A DNA stretch of 58,864 nt, from positions 1-58,864 of the forward strand of contig JAOZQY010000017.1 of the NCBI GenBank assembly GCA_029931975.1. The letters are read 5' to 3'. Positions 2,791-8,356 of this stretch are shown here, one piece after another (within the stretch, counting starts at the first letter, position 1; each line of letters opens with the position of its first letter). Origin of the DNA: Bacteroidales bacterium (GTDB lineage Bacteria; Bacteroidota; Bacteroidia; Bacteroidales; GCA-2748055). Below the pieces are notes generated by a model, which worked only from the letters and a program-made list of their open reading frames with translations, was not told the origin of the DNA and searched no databases. Position numbers and translations under genes: made by a program.

Positions 2791-3192
2791 ATGTCTGTAG
2801 TACGTTTCGGGGTATCATTTGAGAAGAAGGTGCTGGATGCTCTGGATGAATATGTTCTGGAGAACAAGTTTTCCAACCGTTCCCAGGCGCTCAGACAGCT
2901 GGTAAATAAACATATAGTGGAGAAGAAATGGCTCTGCAATAATTGGGTGGCAGGGACAGTTACTCTGGTTTATGATCATCACAGGCGCGATATTGCAAAC
3001 CATCTGGGTGAGATTCAGTTGCAATTTACCGAAGAAATCCTGTCGGTGCAGCGATTTACTTTGAATGAACATAACAGCATGGAGGTAATTGCGCTGAACG
3101 GAATTTCAGCCAGGCTCACCAAACTGGCAGATGAATTAATTTCCCTCAAGGGAATACAGCATGGGAAACTAACAATGAGCAGATTCGACTAA
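2791..3192 (+). CDS. nikR: NikR-like ribbon-helix-helix regulator lacking the nickel ligands
   Basis: 133-aa homologue of the nickel-responsive repressor NikR. Residues 1-45 form the ribbon-helix-helix DNA-binding domain (RFGVSFEKKVLDALD, NRSQALRQLV). Residues 52-133 form the ACT-like regulatory domain, with family landmarks VYDHHRRD (60-67), EHN (93-95), and LKGI...GKLT near the end. From the remembered E. coli and H. pylori NikR sequences, the four square-planar nickel ligands (His, His, His, Cys) fall on Leu77, Arg88, Thr90 and Ser96, so none is kept. It is the first gene of the lar operon; its stop is one base from the larE start, so it probably autoregulates cofactor synthesis. What it senses is unknown: perhaps nickel through other residues, another metal, or a small molecule. 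Confidence 0.85.
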   Translation: MSVVRFGVSFEKKVLDALDEYVLENKFSNRSQALRQLVNKHIVEKKWLCNNWVAGTVTLVYDHHRRDIANHLGEIQLQFTEEILSVQRFTLNEHNSMEVIALNGISARLTKLADELISLKGIQHGKLTMSRFD

Positions 3193-3193
3193 G

Positions 3194-4006
3194 ATGAAAA
3201 AAGAGACAAAAATTAAGCTGGGTATACTGGAAAGGTGGTTTGATGAACGAGCCGGGTCGATCGTTGCATTTTCGGGGGGGGTCGATTCTTCCCTGTTGCT
3301 TTACCTGGCCAGGAAATGGCAGGGAAGAGAGCGGGCCATCGGGGTGATTTCCAAATCGGAAAGCCTGAAAACAAAAGACTTTGAATTTGCCCAATCGTTC
3401 AGCAAGCTTTACGATATCCATATGGAAGTGATCGAGACCCGGGAGCTGGATGATGCGCGTTACAACACCAACCCCATCGACCGGTGTTACTTTTGTAAGG
3501 ACCATCTCTATGGCGATCTTCAGGTGATTCGGAGCAGGTATCCGGGATTTGAAGTATTAAACGGAACCAATAACGACGATTACACCGATTACCGCCCGGG
3601 AATGAAAGCAGCCGACAAATATAATGTGTTTGCTCCGCTGGCACTATGCAGAATAACAAAGACGGAAATCAGGGAGATGGCGCAGCACTTCGGACTGCCA
3701 AACTGGGACAAGCCGGCCAGTCCCTGTCTCAGCTCCCGAATACCCTACACCCATTCCATCACAAAGAGGAAGTTGGTGGAAATAGAGGCGGCCGAGGATC
3801 TGCTTAACAGTTTTGGATTCGAGGATGTAAGGGTGCGACACTATGGTGATCATGGCAGGGTTGAAGTTCCCAGGGAGGAGATTCCCAGGCTGATGGAGAT
3901 GAAAGATTCAGTGGTGGAGAAGATCCGCGAAATCGGTTTTCCGGAGGTGGTGATCGACGAAGAAGGAATGGTTAGTGGCAAATTGAACAGAGCAATAGGA
4001 AAATAG
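3194..4006 (+). CDS. larE: LarE, sulfur transferase for NPN cofactor synthesis
   Basis: 270-aa PP-loop ATP pyrophosphatase that adenylates the pyridinium dicarboxylate mononucleotide made by LarB and supplies sulfur to both carboxylates. The PP-loop SGGVDSS is at residues 27-33. Three cysteines stand out: Cys98 and Cys101 in RCYFCK, and Cys178 in KPASPCLSSRIPY, the position of the sacrificial cysteine of Lactiplantibacillus LarE. The extra pair suggests the cluster-bearing type reported for Thermotoga LarE, which may act catalytically rather than sacrificing a cysteine; that is inference. Second gene of the lar operon, followed after 12 bases by larC. Confidence 0.93.
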   Translation: MKKETKIKLGILERWFDERAGSIVAFSGGVDSSLLLYLARKWQGRERAIGVISKSESLKTKDFEFAQSFSKLYDIHMEVIETRELDDARYNTNPIDRCYFCKDHLYGDLQVIRSRYPGFEVLNGTNNDDYTDYRPGMKAADKYNVFAPLALCRITKTEIREMAQHFGLPNWDKPASPCLSSRIPYTHSITKRKLVEIEAAEDLLNSFGFEDVRVRHYGDHGRVEVPREEIPRLMEMKDSVVEKIREIGFPEVVIDEEGMVSGKLNRAIGK

Positions 4007-4018
4007 CATAAAAATAGC

Positions 4019-5194
4019 ATGAAAAAGATATTGTATTACGATTGTTTTGCAGGGATCAGCGGTGATATGAACCTGGGGGCCCTGGTGGACCTGGGGGTTC
4101 CCGTGGAGCACCTGGAAAAGGAATTGAGTAAACTGAATATTGAGGGTTTCCGTCTGGAGCTAGAGTCCGATATGCGTAAGGGGATCAGTGGGACGAAGAT
4201 TACTGTTGTGATTGAAAACCCCGAAAATGAGAAACACAGGCATTTGCGTCATATAGAAGAGCTGGTCAACAATAGTACCCTTTCTGATCCCATTAAGGAG
4301 AAATCCCTGGCCATTTTTATGAAGGTTGCTGAGGCCGAAGCTAAGGTGCACAATATTGACATTCAAAAGGTCCATTTTCACGAGGTGGGAGCGCTTGACT
4401 CCATTGCCGATATTGTGGGTGCAGCTATCTGCCAGGAGTACCTGGAGGTGGATGAAATTCATGCCTCACCGGTTCAGCTGGGTGGTGGTTTTGTAAAATG
4501 TGCGCATGGGACCATGCCGGTTCCTGCACCGGCCACTGCTGAGATTGTACGGGATCTGCCAGTGAAGACCGGACTCGTGGACTATGAGGCAACTACACCT
4601 ACAGGAGCGGCCATTCTGGCTGCTACCGTGGACAAGTTCTGTGTAGCCATGGAGCTGGTGATCAAAAAAACCGGCTATGGCATCGGTCAGCGTGATGGGG
4701 AAATTCCCAATATATTGAGGGTATATCTGGCTGAGGATTCAGCTCAGCATACGGAAGACCTGAGCGTGGAGGAGGCTATCATGCTGGAGTGTAATATGGA
4801 TGATATGAACCCGGAATGGTATTCCCATATAAACGAAATCCTGTTTGATGCCGGAGCGGCTGATGTATTTATGATACCCATCATCATGAAAAAGTCAAGG
4901 CCCGGTCATATGTTAGGTGTATTGTGCAGGCAGGATACCGTTGCAATGATGAAGGAAATTCTTTTTAGAGAGAGCTCCAGTATCGGGCTAAGGGAATATA
5001 CCATCAGAAAAAACGTACTCCGAAGGGAGATGGTGAAAGTGAAGTTAAAGTATGGTGAAATTGAAGTGAAGCGTAGTTATTACGGGGGAAAGGTGGTGAA
5101 TGAGAAGCCGGAGTTTGAACAGCTTCGCAGATTGGCAATGGAGAATGGTGTAACTCTGGAGGAGATCCGGAAAGAGGTCTATAAACAACTGTAA
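4019..5194 (+). CDS. larC: LarC, nickel insertion enzyme for NPN cofactor
   Basis: 391-aa CTP-dependent cyclometallase that inserts nickel into the bis-thiocarboxylate pincer. It starts MKKILYYDCFAGISGDM, the family signature, with HFHEVGALDSIADIVGA near residue 120 and a C-terminal domain containing NMDDMNPEWY and MKKSRPGHMLGVLC. Unlike the Lactiplantibacillus gene, which is split into larC1 and larC2 and needs a programmed frameshift, this one is a single uninterrupted frame. Its TAA stop shares one base with the larB start (TAATG), so the two are translationally coupled. Confidence 0.94.
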   Translation: MKKILYYDCFAGISGDMNLGALVDLGVPVEHLEKELSKLNIEGFRLELESDMRKGISGTKITVVIENPENEKHRHLRHIEELVNNSTLSDPIKEKSLAIFMKVAEAEAKVHNIDIQKVHFHEVGALDSIADIVGAAICQEYLEVDEIHASPVQLGGGFVKCAHGTMPVPAPATAEIVRDLPVKTGLVDYEATTPTGAAILAATVDKFCVAMELVIKKTGYGIGQRDGEIPNILRVYLAEDSAQHTEDLSVEEAIMLECNMDDMNPEWYSHINEILFDAGAADVFMIPIIMKKSRPGHMLGVLCRQDTVAMMKEILFRESSSIGLREYTIRKNVLRREMVKVKLKYGEIEVKRSYYGGKVVNEKPEFEQLRRLAMENGVTLEEIRKEVYKQL

Positions 5195-5940
5195 TGGATA
5201 AAGCGGAAATTATCAGACTCCTGGAGCAGTATATCAGGGGAGAATTGAAACAGGACGAGACCGCAGAAAAGCTTTCTTCCCTGGGACTGGAAGAGATGGG
5301 ATTTGCGACCCTGGATACGGATCGGTACCGGCGGACAGGGATTCCGGAGGTGATTTATTCTGAGGGGAAGACAGCACAGCAGCTGGCAGATATAGCCGGT
5401 CGTTTTTATGAACGTGGGATTCCCGTACTGGCCACCAGGGCCACCAGGGAGAAGTATGAGGCAGTACTGAAGCAGGTGCCCGGAGCAATCTACCACGACC
5501 TGGCCAGGACCATTGTTTACCGGGCCGAAAAAGCTCAGCCTGCAGAAAAATATATTGCCGTGGTATCGGCAGGAACTTCAGATATGCCTGTTTCGGAGGA
5601 AGCTGCTGTAACAGCCGAATTTCTGGGAAGCCGGGTGGAACGCATCTACGATGTGGGAGTGGCTGGCATCCATCGTTTATTTAACAGGATAGATCTGATC
5701 CGGAATGCCTCCGTGGTGATTGTAGTGGCCGGTATGGAAGGAGCACTGGCCAGTGTGATCGGGGGACTTGTTAGTAGTCCGGTGATCGGGGTGCCCTGCA
5801 GTGCTGGATACGGGGCCAATTTCGGTGGGATTTCAGCCTTGCTTGCCATGCTTAACAGTTGTGCCGCCGGGGTCAGTGTGGTGAATATTGATAATGGTTT
5901 TGGTGCGGCCTGTCAGGCCCACCTTATTGCAAAAAAATGA
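5194..5940 (+). CDS. larB: LarB, pyridinium-3,5-biscarboxylate mononucleotide synthase
   Basis: 248-aa enzyme that carboxylates and hydrolyses nicotinate adenine dinucleotide, the first step of NPN cofactor synthesis. The C-terminal half (about 120-248) is an AIR-carboxylase-like (PurE) domain: VVSAGTSDMPVSEEA, VERIYDVGVAGIHR, VVAGMEGALASVIGGL and VIGVPCSAGYG. The N-terminal helical part contains ATLDTDRYRRTGIPEVIYSEGK. The length is usual for the family. Order in this operon is larE-larC-larB, and the gene overlaps larC by one base. Confidence 0.94.
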   Translation: MDKAEIIRLLEQYIRGELKQDETAEKLSSLGLEEMGFATLDTDRYRRTGIPEVIYSEGKTAQQLADIAGRFYERGIPVLATRATREKYEAVLKQVPGAIYHDLARTIVYRAEKAQPAEKYIAVVSAGTSDMPVSEEAAVTAEFLGSRVERIYDVGVAGIHRLFNRIDLIRNASVVIVVAGMEGALASVIGGLVSSPVIGVPCSAGYGANFGGISALLAMLNSCAAGVSVVNIDNGFGAACQAHLIAKK

Positions 5941-5975
5941 AGACTTCTGTACTGTAAAAAAGCTATGTGCATATT

Positions 5976-6683
5976 ATGAATGAAATGTTGGTCTTACTGA
6001 TGTCGGCCGGAACAATTGGGGTGATCCATACCCTGCTTGGTCCCGACCACTATCTCCCTTTTATTGTCCTGAGCAGGGCCCGTAACTGGACCCGCACCCG
6101 CACCCTCTGGATCACCTTTATCTCCGGAGTGGGGCATGTGACAGGGTCGGTGATCCTGGGAATGATCGGGATTGCCATGGGCATCAGCCTGAGCAAGATT
6201 GAAGCCATTGAATCGAGTCGTGGAAGTTTGGTGGGATGGATGCTTATTGCTTTTGGCTTGCTCTATACTGGCTATGGAATATATAAGTATTTCAAAAAGG
6301 GTGCACATATGCACTTACCAGCCTTCCTGCGTCCCAAATCCATTCGTCACAGCGATCTTCATCTCCATGAAGGAGATCTAAAAGAGGAGGAGGATGCAGG
6401 CCGGTTGACACCCTGGATACTCTTCCTGATTTTTGTCTTTGGGCCCTGCGAGGTGCTGATTCCCATGTTGGTGTACCCGGCTGCGAATCATAGCGGATTG
6501 GGTGTTTTTTTGGTAGCGCTGGTCTTCGGGATTGCCACTGTGGGAACCATGTTGCTTGTGGTCATGCTTGGCTACAAAGGACTCTCGCTGGTGAGGTTCA
6601 AAGGCAGGGAACACCAGTTGCATTTGTTCGCCGGACTTGTTATCCTGGCTGCCGGGGCAGGAATGCAGTTTATGGGATTGTAA
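5976..6683 (+). CDS. UreH/NicO-type nickel permease of the lar operon
   Basis: About 235-aa inner-membrane protein with six or so helices. The first helix carries HTLLGPDHYLP, the H-x4-[GA]PDH signature of UreH-type nickel transporters. A second conserved segment is SGVGHVTGS, and a third is FGPCEVLIPM. A His-rich cytoplasmic loop (MHLPAF, RHSDLHLHEGD) lies in the middle, as in many nickel and cobalt permeases. It ends 35 bases after larB with the same orientation, so it very likely supplies nickel to LarC. A GTG at 5967 could add three residues; the ATG at 5976 is preferred. Transport direction (import rather than efflux) is inferred from context. Confidence 0.8.
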   Translation: MNEMLVLLMSAGTIGVIHTLLGPDHYLPFIVLSRARNWTRTRTLWITFISGVGHVTGSVILGMIGIAMGISLSKIEAIESSRGSLVGWMLIAFGLLYTGYGIYKYFKKGAHMHLPAFLRPKSIRHSDLHLHEGDLKEEEDAGRLTPWILFLIFVFGPCEVLIPMLVYPAANHSGLGVFLVALVFGIATVGTMLLVVMLGYKGLSLVRFKGREHQLHLFAGLVILAAGAGMQFMGL

Positions 6684-6721: not shown

Positions 6722-8356
6722 TCATTCCCTAACGCATCTTGCAGAGCTAGTATTGGGACGGTTCCCTTCCCAACGTTCGATTCCGCCGTGACCGGTTACC
6801 AGCATCCTGTAGATTGCTAAGCCTTCACCGGGGACTGAGGAGGTCCAGAATACCGTAAAGTCTCCCAAGCCTTGAGAAGTCCCGCTTTCCGGAAAGATCA
6901 TACCGCTGGGCCAGGCTGAGAAATTGGTGGAGTTGGTGGCCAGGGCATTGGGTTCATTCCAGGGGGGGGATTCGGCCAGTTTGAGCATCCCTCCTTCATC
7001 ATCGCCCCGCTGGTTCAAATAGTCCAGTTCTTCTGCCGGAACTCCCAGAAACTCCTTCATGACCATCCACTTCTCATCGGAAGCAATGTGCCATCCTTCG
7101 GGACAGACCCCCTGTGTGGGCTCCAGGGAATACTGCATCATCTCATCCCAGGTATACAAGCCTCCATAGCTGTTACAGTTTGAGGGATTGTCATCATAGC
7201 AGAATTTCTCAATTTTTCCATTGTCCCGCTGATCTCCTTCAATGGTCATGAATGTGCCCACATTCAGGTTTTCTGCCATCCAGCACTGACCACCAATCTG
7301 CACGGTGGCATATTCCTGTTGGTCCCTTGGATCGACCAGAAGCTCCCCACAGCTGCAAAGAGTCCTCAGTCGCATGGGTTCACCATACCCCACCCCTTCC
7401 TCATTGACAGCATAGGCCCTGATGAAGTATACCGTGTAGTGCGTAAATCCGGAAATTGTTGTGGAATATACGTCTGTGCCGGAGTCAATTCTTTTGAGAA
7501 CGCCATTTTCCACGGTGGGGACTTCATTATCGATCTCACCGAGTAGCACACCTTTTTCTATGATAGCTGAGCTGCCTGTATTGGAGATATATCCCCCAAA
7601 TTCAAGACTCGTAACACCTACAGTTATTAAGTGAGTCTCAACGGTAGGCATCTCTTTAAACCTGGTTGTAAACTCCAGATCCTCTCCATATCCGGTTCCT
7701 TGTTCGTTGGTGGCATAGGCTCTAGCATAATACTTTGTCCCCATCTGCAGTTCATCCAGTATTCCATTGAATTCTCCTAAACCAGCACCAGAGGCGGTAT
7801 GCTCACCCGAGATAACTGGACCTGGATTCTGTCCCCAGCAGATTCCTCTCTCTGTGACAGCAGAACTCCCATCTGAAATAACACTTCCAGAAATTCCTGC
7901 TTCGTGCAAAGTTACAAAAAGGGTGTCAAGGCTTACTACGACAGGAATTTCTGCTACCAGGGTTGTGAATTCAAGAGATTCCGCACTGTATTCCTGCTCA
8001 CCAACATCAATGTAAGTCCATACATAATATGCGGATGACGGTTCAAGATCCAGAAGGGTTCCGCTTACCTGGCCGGTCTTATTTGTCTTGCCCAGAGAGA
8101 CTTTGTTTCCGGGATTTATTTCCTGTCCTTCCAGGACCCAGCGAAAGCCATGGTCCAGAACCTTTTTTCCCCCAAGGTCGATAAGGGGTGTTATAAACTC
8201 GACCTCAGGTGGGTCAAGGTCCGGAATCTCTTTGACTTTAACCACCGGGAGGTTGCTGATTTTTAATCCGGCTTTTACACTTTTCACTTCCTGAGCACTG
8301 ATAGCCGTGCAGGAAAGTATTAAGATGCCTATGAGTATGAAGCAGGATTGTCTCAT
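6722..8356 (-). CDS. Secreted protein with Fn3-like repeats and a FISUMP domain
   Basis: 544-aa exported protein. Residues 1-22 form a signal peptide (ILILSCTAISAQ). Three or four fibronectin-III-like repeats follow (about 45-330), each with the pattern ITERGICWG...AYATNEQGTGYGEDLEFTT. The C-terminal part (about 335-544) is a Fibrobacter succinogenes major paralogous (FISUMP) domain: QCWMAENLNVGT, CPEGWHIASDEKW and FWTSS...RCVRE at the end. FISUMP proteins are cell-surface proteins of unknown function, abundant in Bacteroidota and Fibrobacter. Two bases separate its start from the stop of the interrupted gene upstream, so they formed one operon. Confidence 0.82.
   Translation of the reverse strand: MRQSCFILIGILILSCTAISAQEVKSVKAGLKISNLPVVKVKEIPDLDPPEVEFITPLIDLGGKKVLDHGFRWVLEGQEINPGNKVSLGKTNKTGQVSGTLLDLEPSSAYYVWTYIDVGEQEYSAESLEFTTLVAEIPVVVSLDTLFVTLHEAGISGSVISDGSSAVTERGICWGQNPGPVISGEHTASGAGLGEFNGILDELQMGTKYYARAYATNEQGTGYGEDLEFTTRFKEMPTVETHLITVGVTSLEFGGYISNTGSSAIIEKGVLLGEIDNEVPTVENGVLKRIDSGTDVYSTTISGFTHYTVYFIRAYAVNEEGVGYGEPMRLRTLCSCGELLVDPRDQQEYATVQIGGQCWMAENLNVGTFMTIEGDQRDNGKIEKFCYDDNPSNCNSYGGLYTWDEMMQYSLEPTQGVCPEGWHIASDEKWMVMKEFLGVPAEELDYLNQRGDDEGGMLKLAESPPWNEPNALATNSTNFSAWPSGMIFPESGTSQGLGDFTVFWTSSVPGEGLAIYRMLVTGHGGIERWEGNRPNTSSARCVRE

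Follow-up and report, generated by a model that had tools for sequence, protein, structure and literature searches.

A NikR-lineage regulator lacking the nickel site, with a NikR-type operator sequence, at the head of a lar operon in Bacteroidales

The regulator and its operon

The window analysed here, a stretch of 58,864 nucleotides from a Bacteroidales bacterium (contig JAOZQY010000017.1 of assembly GCA_029931975.1), carries on its forward strand a gene at 2791-3192 for a NikR-lineage regulator of 133 amino acids, composed of a ribbon-helix-helix (RHH) part and an ACT-like NikR_C domain, followed by genes of NPN cofactor synthesis in the same orientation. After a gap of 1 bp comes larE (3194-4006), encoding the sacrificial sulfur transferase (TIGR00268, 270.6 bits against a cut-off of 150), and after a further 12 bp larC (4019-5194), the nickel insertion gene (TIGR00299, 218.9 bits; NF052512, 143.2 bits; PF01969, 489.6 bits); larB (5194-5940; NF033503, 297.6 bits against a cut-off of 175) overlaps larC by 1 bp, and a membrane permease gene (5967-6683, with an alternative ATG at 5976) stands last. 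The three lar genes occur together and each scores above its profile cut-off; the names LarE, LarC and LarB given to their products by NCBIfam uphold the original prediction that the regulator heads larE-larC-larB. On the reverse strand, a dodecin gene (2453-2662; PF07311, 89.2 bits) diverges from the operon across a 128-bp spacer common to both, and probably lies outside the regulator-lar operon.

A nickel permease had also been predicted in this operon; a membrane permease is indeed present, whereas its nickel label is deduced from a motif and from gene neighbourhoods. Its single Pfam match is DsbD_2 (PF13386, 26.5 bits against a cut-off of 24.9), no NCBIfam model matched it, and by the motif we take it to be UreH/NicO-like. 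Because its family lies less than 4 kb from nickel-site nikR genes in 11 distinct loci, we regard the permease as a probable nickel importer. The order larE-larC-larB-permease of the window also occurs at two loci (L220, G157:C96; L224, G222:C169) without a NikR, without the operator described below and behind differing upstream genes.

When the PDB was searched with phmmer, the regulator matched P. horikoshii NikR (2bj1) with an E value of 8.2e-29 over residues 1-130, and the NikRs of H. pylori and E. coli were also among the matches; these NikRs are its best PDB matches and have the same RHH part and ACT-like domain. The regulator scores 83.9 bits with Pfam NikR_C (PF08753, cut-off 22) and 125.8 bits with the NCBIfam NikR model (PRK04460, cut-off 105); the RHH profile PF01402 alone stays below its threshold (17.2 bits against 20.5), and the RHH part is recognized from the full-length alignment to NikR chains 2bj1 and 2wvb. 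The landmarks VYDHHRRD, EHN and LKGI..GKLT, noted in the original prediction, are all in the sequence. An AlphaFold2 model (monomer, mean pLDDT 86, pTM 0.61, from a 32-row alignment) has NikR structures as its top fold matches, with Z 16.3 and an rmsd of 6.9 Å over 133 residues against NikR 2bj3, and Z 16.0 and an rmsd of 1.0 Å over 83 of 83 residues against the Ni-bound C-terminal domain of E. coli NikR (1q5y). Next comes TM1266 (PDB 2nzc), a stand-alone domain of the same fold whose entry title reads 'uncharacterized' (Z 13.2, rmsd 1.5 Å over 79 residues, 18% identity); it aligns from model residue 51 onward and has no RHH part. ACT domains of amino-acid-regulated enzymes are also among the structural neighbours.

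The nickel ligands of E. coli NikR are His76, His87, His89 and Cys95 (PMC7055735). Model residues 51-133 lie on residues 50-132 of the 1q5y chain without a gap and at a constant offset of +1, so the assignment of the ligand columns is safe: the four ligands map to window residues 77, 88, 90 and 96, which by sequence alignment as well are L77, R88, T90 and S96 in place of His, His, His and Cys. The predicted absence of all four ligands is thereby borne out by both alignments, and the gapless match rules out an alternative placement of His or Cys ligands. The window protein lacks what defines NikR as a nickel sensor, its square-planar His3Cys site being gone, whereas the E. coli, H. pylori and P. 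horikoshii NikRs have all four ligands. Known NikRs also control nickel import, urease or hydrogenase genes, whereas this regulator heads NPN cofactor genes. Since it passes the NCBIfam cut-off, annotation pipelines would name it a nickel-responsive regulator despite the missing site.

Distribution and ancestry of site loss

Among 18 genomes of the genus, 13 have a NikR match (one partial) and 13 have LarC; 12 have both, G014 has NikR alone, G004 has LarC alone (at a contig edge) and four have neither. All 12 complete NikR copies of the genus have a stop-free reading frame and lack the nickel site, with LRTS, MRTS, RRTS or RRMS in the ligand columns; their nearest nickel-site relatives are 55-61% identical to the window regulator. 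A tree was built from 119 rows and only 129 columns with the ligand columns omitted, leaving out 18 of the 137 distinct NikR rows, all of them with His-His-His-Cys (HHHC). It places the 12 genus copies with four more distant rows in a site-less clade of 16 rows (support 98/91, from a bootstrap that had not settled). Three of the distant rows, with EQMT, TRL- and IRIH, stand beside lar genes, and the fourth, with ERIH, has no lar gene in the examined flank. A second lar-linked pair (SHFY and AQFL), with the gene order nikR-permease-larE-larB-larC, is likewise site-less and stands apart in the tree (support 100/91); a single origin of lar linkage was rejected by the AU test (p 0.0005). A lone decayed copy had been considered as the alternative to a conserved clade, and it is a clade that we find: the examined lar-linked homologues all lack the standard site. 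The genus copies are under purifying selection: the three pairs with the least saturation, which have dS of 0.39-0.64 and all lie among L004, L005 and L006, give dN/dS of 0.017, 0.026 and 0.051; the seven other pairs listed have dN/dS of 0.034-0.158 at dS above 1.

Two side groups appeared in the same data. The ERIH member (L131; G022:C151, NikR ORF at 7504) is followed, in place of lar genes, by genes that by eye resemble those of a KDPG aldolase and a sugar-acid kinase, and it retains the predicted operator (row L013). A separate NikR clade of 11 rows (L097, L099-L105, L109, L110 and L114; L098 duplicates L097 and L105 contains row L021; support 100/100) has ligand columns of the Gln/Gln/Tyr/Cys (QQYC) type; the next gene encodes a TonB receptor in 10 of the 11, and a full-length [NiFe] hydrogenase is present in 5 of the 8 genomes examined.

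Around the former site, the column of R88 holds Arg in 15/16 clade rows and His in 99/99 nickel-site rows, and E82 is likewise present in 15/16 clade rows. The remaining candidates for metal ligands, Cys49 (16/16), His64 (15/16), His124 (14/16) and His63 (12/16, with Pro or Ile in the other four), are seen against a background of nickel-site rows in which His63 occurs in 96, His124 in 93 and His64 in 90 of 99. Both His63 and His64 are kept across the genus and both are absent from the second lar pair. Cys49 was rejected as a new ligand common to the site-less groups, being present in 34/99 nickel-site rows and in 9 of the 10 that lie closest to site-less rows in the tree. His94 varies inside the genus and is therefore not a replacement ligand. 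No single new residue set is shared by all lar-linked lineages, whose ligand columns read LRTS, MRTS, RRTS, RRMS, IRIH, EQMT, TRL-, SHFY and AQFL. Clade and nickel-site rows share R5-F6-G7-V8-S9 as the majority sequence of the DNA-reading strand. Trp54, the relay tryptophan in H. pylori NikR (PMC9860126), aligns with W47, which is present in 16/16 clade rows; the relay lysines 64 and 140 align with V53 and M129, which are also the majority residues in nickel-site rows and are therefore uninformative on site loss.

A single draw from the order comprised 295 genomes, of which 67 had NikR, 38 had LarC and, counted by hand, 25 had both. Where NikR adjoins lar genes it is site-less in 7/7 genomes (G000, G002, G015, G029, G201, G244 and G306, the last included on the strength of larE only, which lies at a contig end), and where it lies on another contig than the lar genes it is HHHC in 18/18 (Fisher p 2.1e-6, uncorrected for ancestry). 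Since many nickel-site loci had a flank of only 1.5 kb, adjacency to lar genes was read from contig positions; in draft contigs a neighbour may be missed. The rule is striking and rests on two phylogenetic events: with just two independent lar linkages in the tree, a test on pairs, which needs at least six informative ones, cannot reach significance. In addition, 21 of the 119 rows in the tree deviate from HHHC without being linked to lar genes, and G201 carries another NikR (SGYY) that has no lar genes nearby; since site-less NikRs without lar genes exist, lar linkage accompanies site loss and is not required for it. The second lar pair lies near such site-less, non-lar NikRs, and site loss there may therefore predate lar linkage; this pair also lacks Arg88.

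The window's genome (assembly 96% complete) has one NikR match and, on other contigs, three LarA homologues (PF09861). The nickel enzymes searched were the [NiFe] hydrogenase large subunit and urease; in this genome neither the large subunit nor urease alpha was found, and together with the three LarA homologues this suggests that NPN may be its main use of nickel. Full or two-part matches to the hydrogenase large subunit occur in 2/13 lar-linked genomes (G010 and G201) against 9/18 nickel-site genomes, and short matches of 69 residues in a further 4/13 and 4/18, in a search set that also took in one unrelated genome (G116). The lower number of hydrogenase large subunits in lar-linked genomes is suggestive only.

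The NikR-type operator sequence

A putative NikR-type operator, TTAACAC-N14-GTAACAC, lies on the forward strand at 2762-2789 (half-sites 2762-2768 and 2783-2789) and ends one base 5' of the ATG of the regulator. The NikR signal of the delta-proteobacteria is GTGTTAC-[N13/14]-GTAACAC, with the opposite orientation also given, in the part of PMC545781 available to us; the window site matches these half-sites with 1 mismatch, in a direct-repeat orientation that occurs most often in the scored rows of the order and is not listed in that part of the paper. The predicted delta-proteobacterial regulon thus shares half-sites and N13/14 spacing with the window, and its targets are in nickel transport, the sites preceding nikMQO-type transporters and hydrogenase (PMC545781, same part), whereas the window site precedes lar genes. 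The E. coli operator, GTATGA-N16-TCATAC according to the portion of PMC7055735 available, likewise has two half-sites over about 28 bp, as predicted here. Judged by its operator sequence, the window protein resembles a NikR where DNA is concerned.

We scored rows for a half-site pair in either orientation with N13/14 spacing and at most 3 mismatches, ending at most 3 nt from the ATG. Such a site is present in 14/16 rows of the site-less clade, in 2/2 rows of the second lar pair, in 50/69 nickel-site rows of the order and genome_contigs set, in 6/30 nickel-site rows from a draw of the phylum, in 6/8 of the remaining rows with an incomplete or missing nickel site, the QQYC group excepted (of the 8, two are His-His-His-Thr, HHHT) and in 0/11 rows of the QQYC group; shuffled controls gave at most 0.0025. 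The two clade rows without it are L115 and L011, the latter from G014, where no LarC was found. The HHHC NikRs of Bacteroidales and Balneolales are similar to the window in having the predicted operator before the ATG in most cases, and some of them adjoin a TonB receptor, a FecCD-type ABC transporter or a member of the window's permease family; they differ in keeping His3Cys and in not standing beside LarC in the 18 surveyed genomes with both. What is new here is a NikR-type operator sequence directly before a site-less, lar-heading NikR, and shared by many relatives, whether or not they have the nickel site.

The lar genes themselves were scanned from -300 to +150 of each lar reading frame (N13/14, at most 3 mismatches), a procedure that recovers the window site with 1 mismatch. 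Of the lar regions that have no adjacent NikR, 28 were scanned (16 from nickel-site genomes and 12 from genomes without NikR): no lar gene start had a site with 2 mismatches or fewer, which holds for all 16 regions of the HHHC genomes, and a site with 3 mismatches was found in 3/28 (75 starts tested; region L228 has just 178 nt of upstream sequence, and G168, G262 and G284, whose LarC matches are weak and partial in two cases and a fragment in the other, were left out). Likewise, no site with 2 mismatches or fewer was found at the three LarA loci of the window's genome. A genome-wide regulon from the operator pattern alone was discarded: summed over the 18 genus genomes, the reversed control pattern gave 115 matches against 35, and therefore only the position before a start codon is informative. 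Read with its position, the sequence at 2762-2789 lends support to the proposal that the regulator controls the lar operon.

The operator is also predicted upstream of a TonB receptor in 3/3 genus members having that receptor (G001, G014 and G015); it has 0, 2 and 1 mismatches and its end is 2, 2 and 20 nt from the assumed start codon, respectively, and the spacing is N13 in G014 and G015. The receptor of G001 is about 50% identical to receptors adjoining nickel-site NikRs; no such receptor was found at E 1e-30 in the other 15 genus genomes, the window's own included. G006 and G016 have an operator-like site before another type of TonB receptor, and that of G016 (L177:1501-1527, G016:C58) occurs in an 88% complete assembly that yielded neither NikR nor LarC.

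As for the promoter, a possible Bacteroidota -7 box, TATCTTGC, was read by eye and with low confidence at 2748-2755 on the forward strand, for which we presume the consensus TAnnTTTG. By eye, no convincing -33 element precedes it, and a sigma-70 promoter scan gave a chance-level result (6 found against 5.8 expected).

Possible effectors of the regulator

The reading we favour, though we give it a little less than an even chance, is that the window protein is a NikR-lineage autorepressor of the lar operon that has kept its DNA target, lost the nickel switch and responds to an NPN-pathway signal instead. With the DNA-reading half of NikR apparently unchanged and the nickel site gone, the regulator would bind the two half-sites that lead up to its own start codon and would thereby repress its own operon, nikR-larE-larC-larB-permease; we infer repression because the predicted operator ends at the start codon. 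In some relatives, the regulator may also repress the TonB receptor of the type found beside nickel-site NikRs. The effector, the least certain part of the mechanism, would be an NPN-pathway signal that takes over the role of free Ni2+ at the His3Cys site. NPN itself or one of its phosphate-bearing precursors is the most plausible candidate; the ACT-like domain would hold it in the region of Arg88, and the outcome would be end-product feedback on cofactor synthesis and nickel uptake. Such feedback would explain why the regulator sits in the lar operon and over nickel uptake genes, and why the nickel site was lost and a conserved Arg gained. Against this stand the origin of lar linkage only twice in the tree, the second lar pair without Arg88 and with site loss that may be the older event, the two clade rows without the operator (L115 and L011), the three LarA loci without a close site, the hydrogenase-like large subunits of G010 and G201 with short matches in four more genomes, and the related lar operon order without any NikR (L220 and L224). 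The wider proposal, that the Bacteroidales NikR fold twice moved to lar genes, lost its site, kept its operator and reads NPN or a precursor through the ACT-like domain, is tentative and, taken as a whole, rather doubtful.

A ligand-independent autorepressor fits the data nearly as well as NPN-pathway sensing. Arg88, Glu82 and their neighbours would here lock the tetramer in its DNA-binding state and give a fixed, self-limited lar level; the differing ligand-column residues among lineages would be expected if only the loss of metal dependence matters, R88 and E82 each recur in 15/16 clade rows, and an operator ending at the ATG suits autorepression, which by itself is common. We nevertheless consider it somewhat unlikely, since R88 is kept over several genera of one clade, suggesting a specific role, E82 is also found in P. 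horikoshii NikR and hence is not special, and it is hard to see what a biosynthetic operon would gain from a repressor that is always locked. It is less probable again that nickel is still sensed, with ordinary nickel-dependent repression, through other ligands (His63, His64, His124, Cys49 or the His41 region). The probable nickel permease in the operon, the three relatives with an operator before a TonB receptor of the nickel-site-NikR type and the frequency of these residues in the clade all speak for nickel, but the histidines are as common in nickel-site NikRs, Cys49 follows ancestry and none looks new; moreover, Pro or Ile replaces His63 in four clade rows, and the second lar pair has neither His63 nor His64.

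Induction of NPN synthesis by a 2-hydroxy acid of LarA (lactate, malate or gluconate) would accord with the ACT domains of amino-acid-regulated enzymes among the model's neighbours and with the genes beside L131 that resemble those of sugar-acid use by eye (KDPG aldolase and sugar-acid kinase). We think it improbable, given that the operon contains no LarA gene, that the LarA loci have no site with 2 mismatches or fewer, and that the probable nickel permease of the operon speaks for cofactor supply. Least credible of all, to the point of being nearly dismissed, is a decaying and functionless NikR copy: the loss of all four ligands would suit it, but the frame is intact in 12/12 genus copies, dN/dS is low in the least saturated pairs, operator and operon are kept in most, and this is the only NikR found in the genome.

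If NPN-pathway sensing is true, the window-type NikR would be the first of its kind, as we know of no regulator that senses the NPN cofactor, and its effector bears on how cells gauge that cofactor. Predictions of nickel regulation based on the NikR name may be wrong for the site-less clade, which together with its relatives forms a natural experiment in which operator and fold are the same and the metal switch is present in some members and absent from others. In the open-access literature, as represented mostly by listings, we came across no report of a NikR-type protein controlling NPN synthesis, and the available parts of PMC11796402, PMC545781, PMC7055735, PMC2667541, PMC9860126, PMC10134865 and PMC7583248 describe neither a site-less nor a lar-controlling NikR. 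NikR is mentioned once in the accessible text of PMC11796402, as an idea for an E. coli strain, and PMC7583248 covers the genomic contexts of LarA, with no mention of regulation in its accessible portion. Apart from these questions, two NikRs of the HHHT type (L028 from G023 and L030 from G018) have lost only the cysteine ligand and kept the operator.
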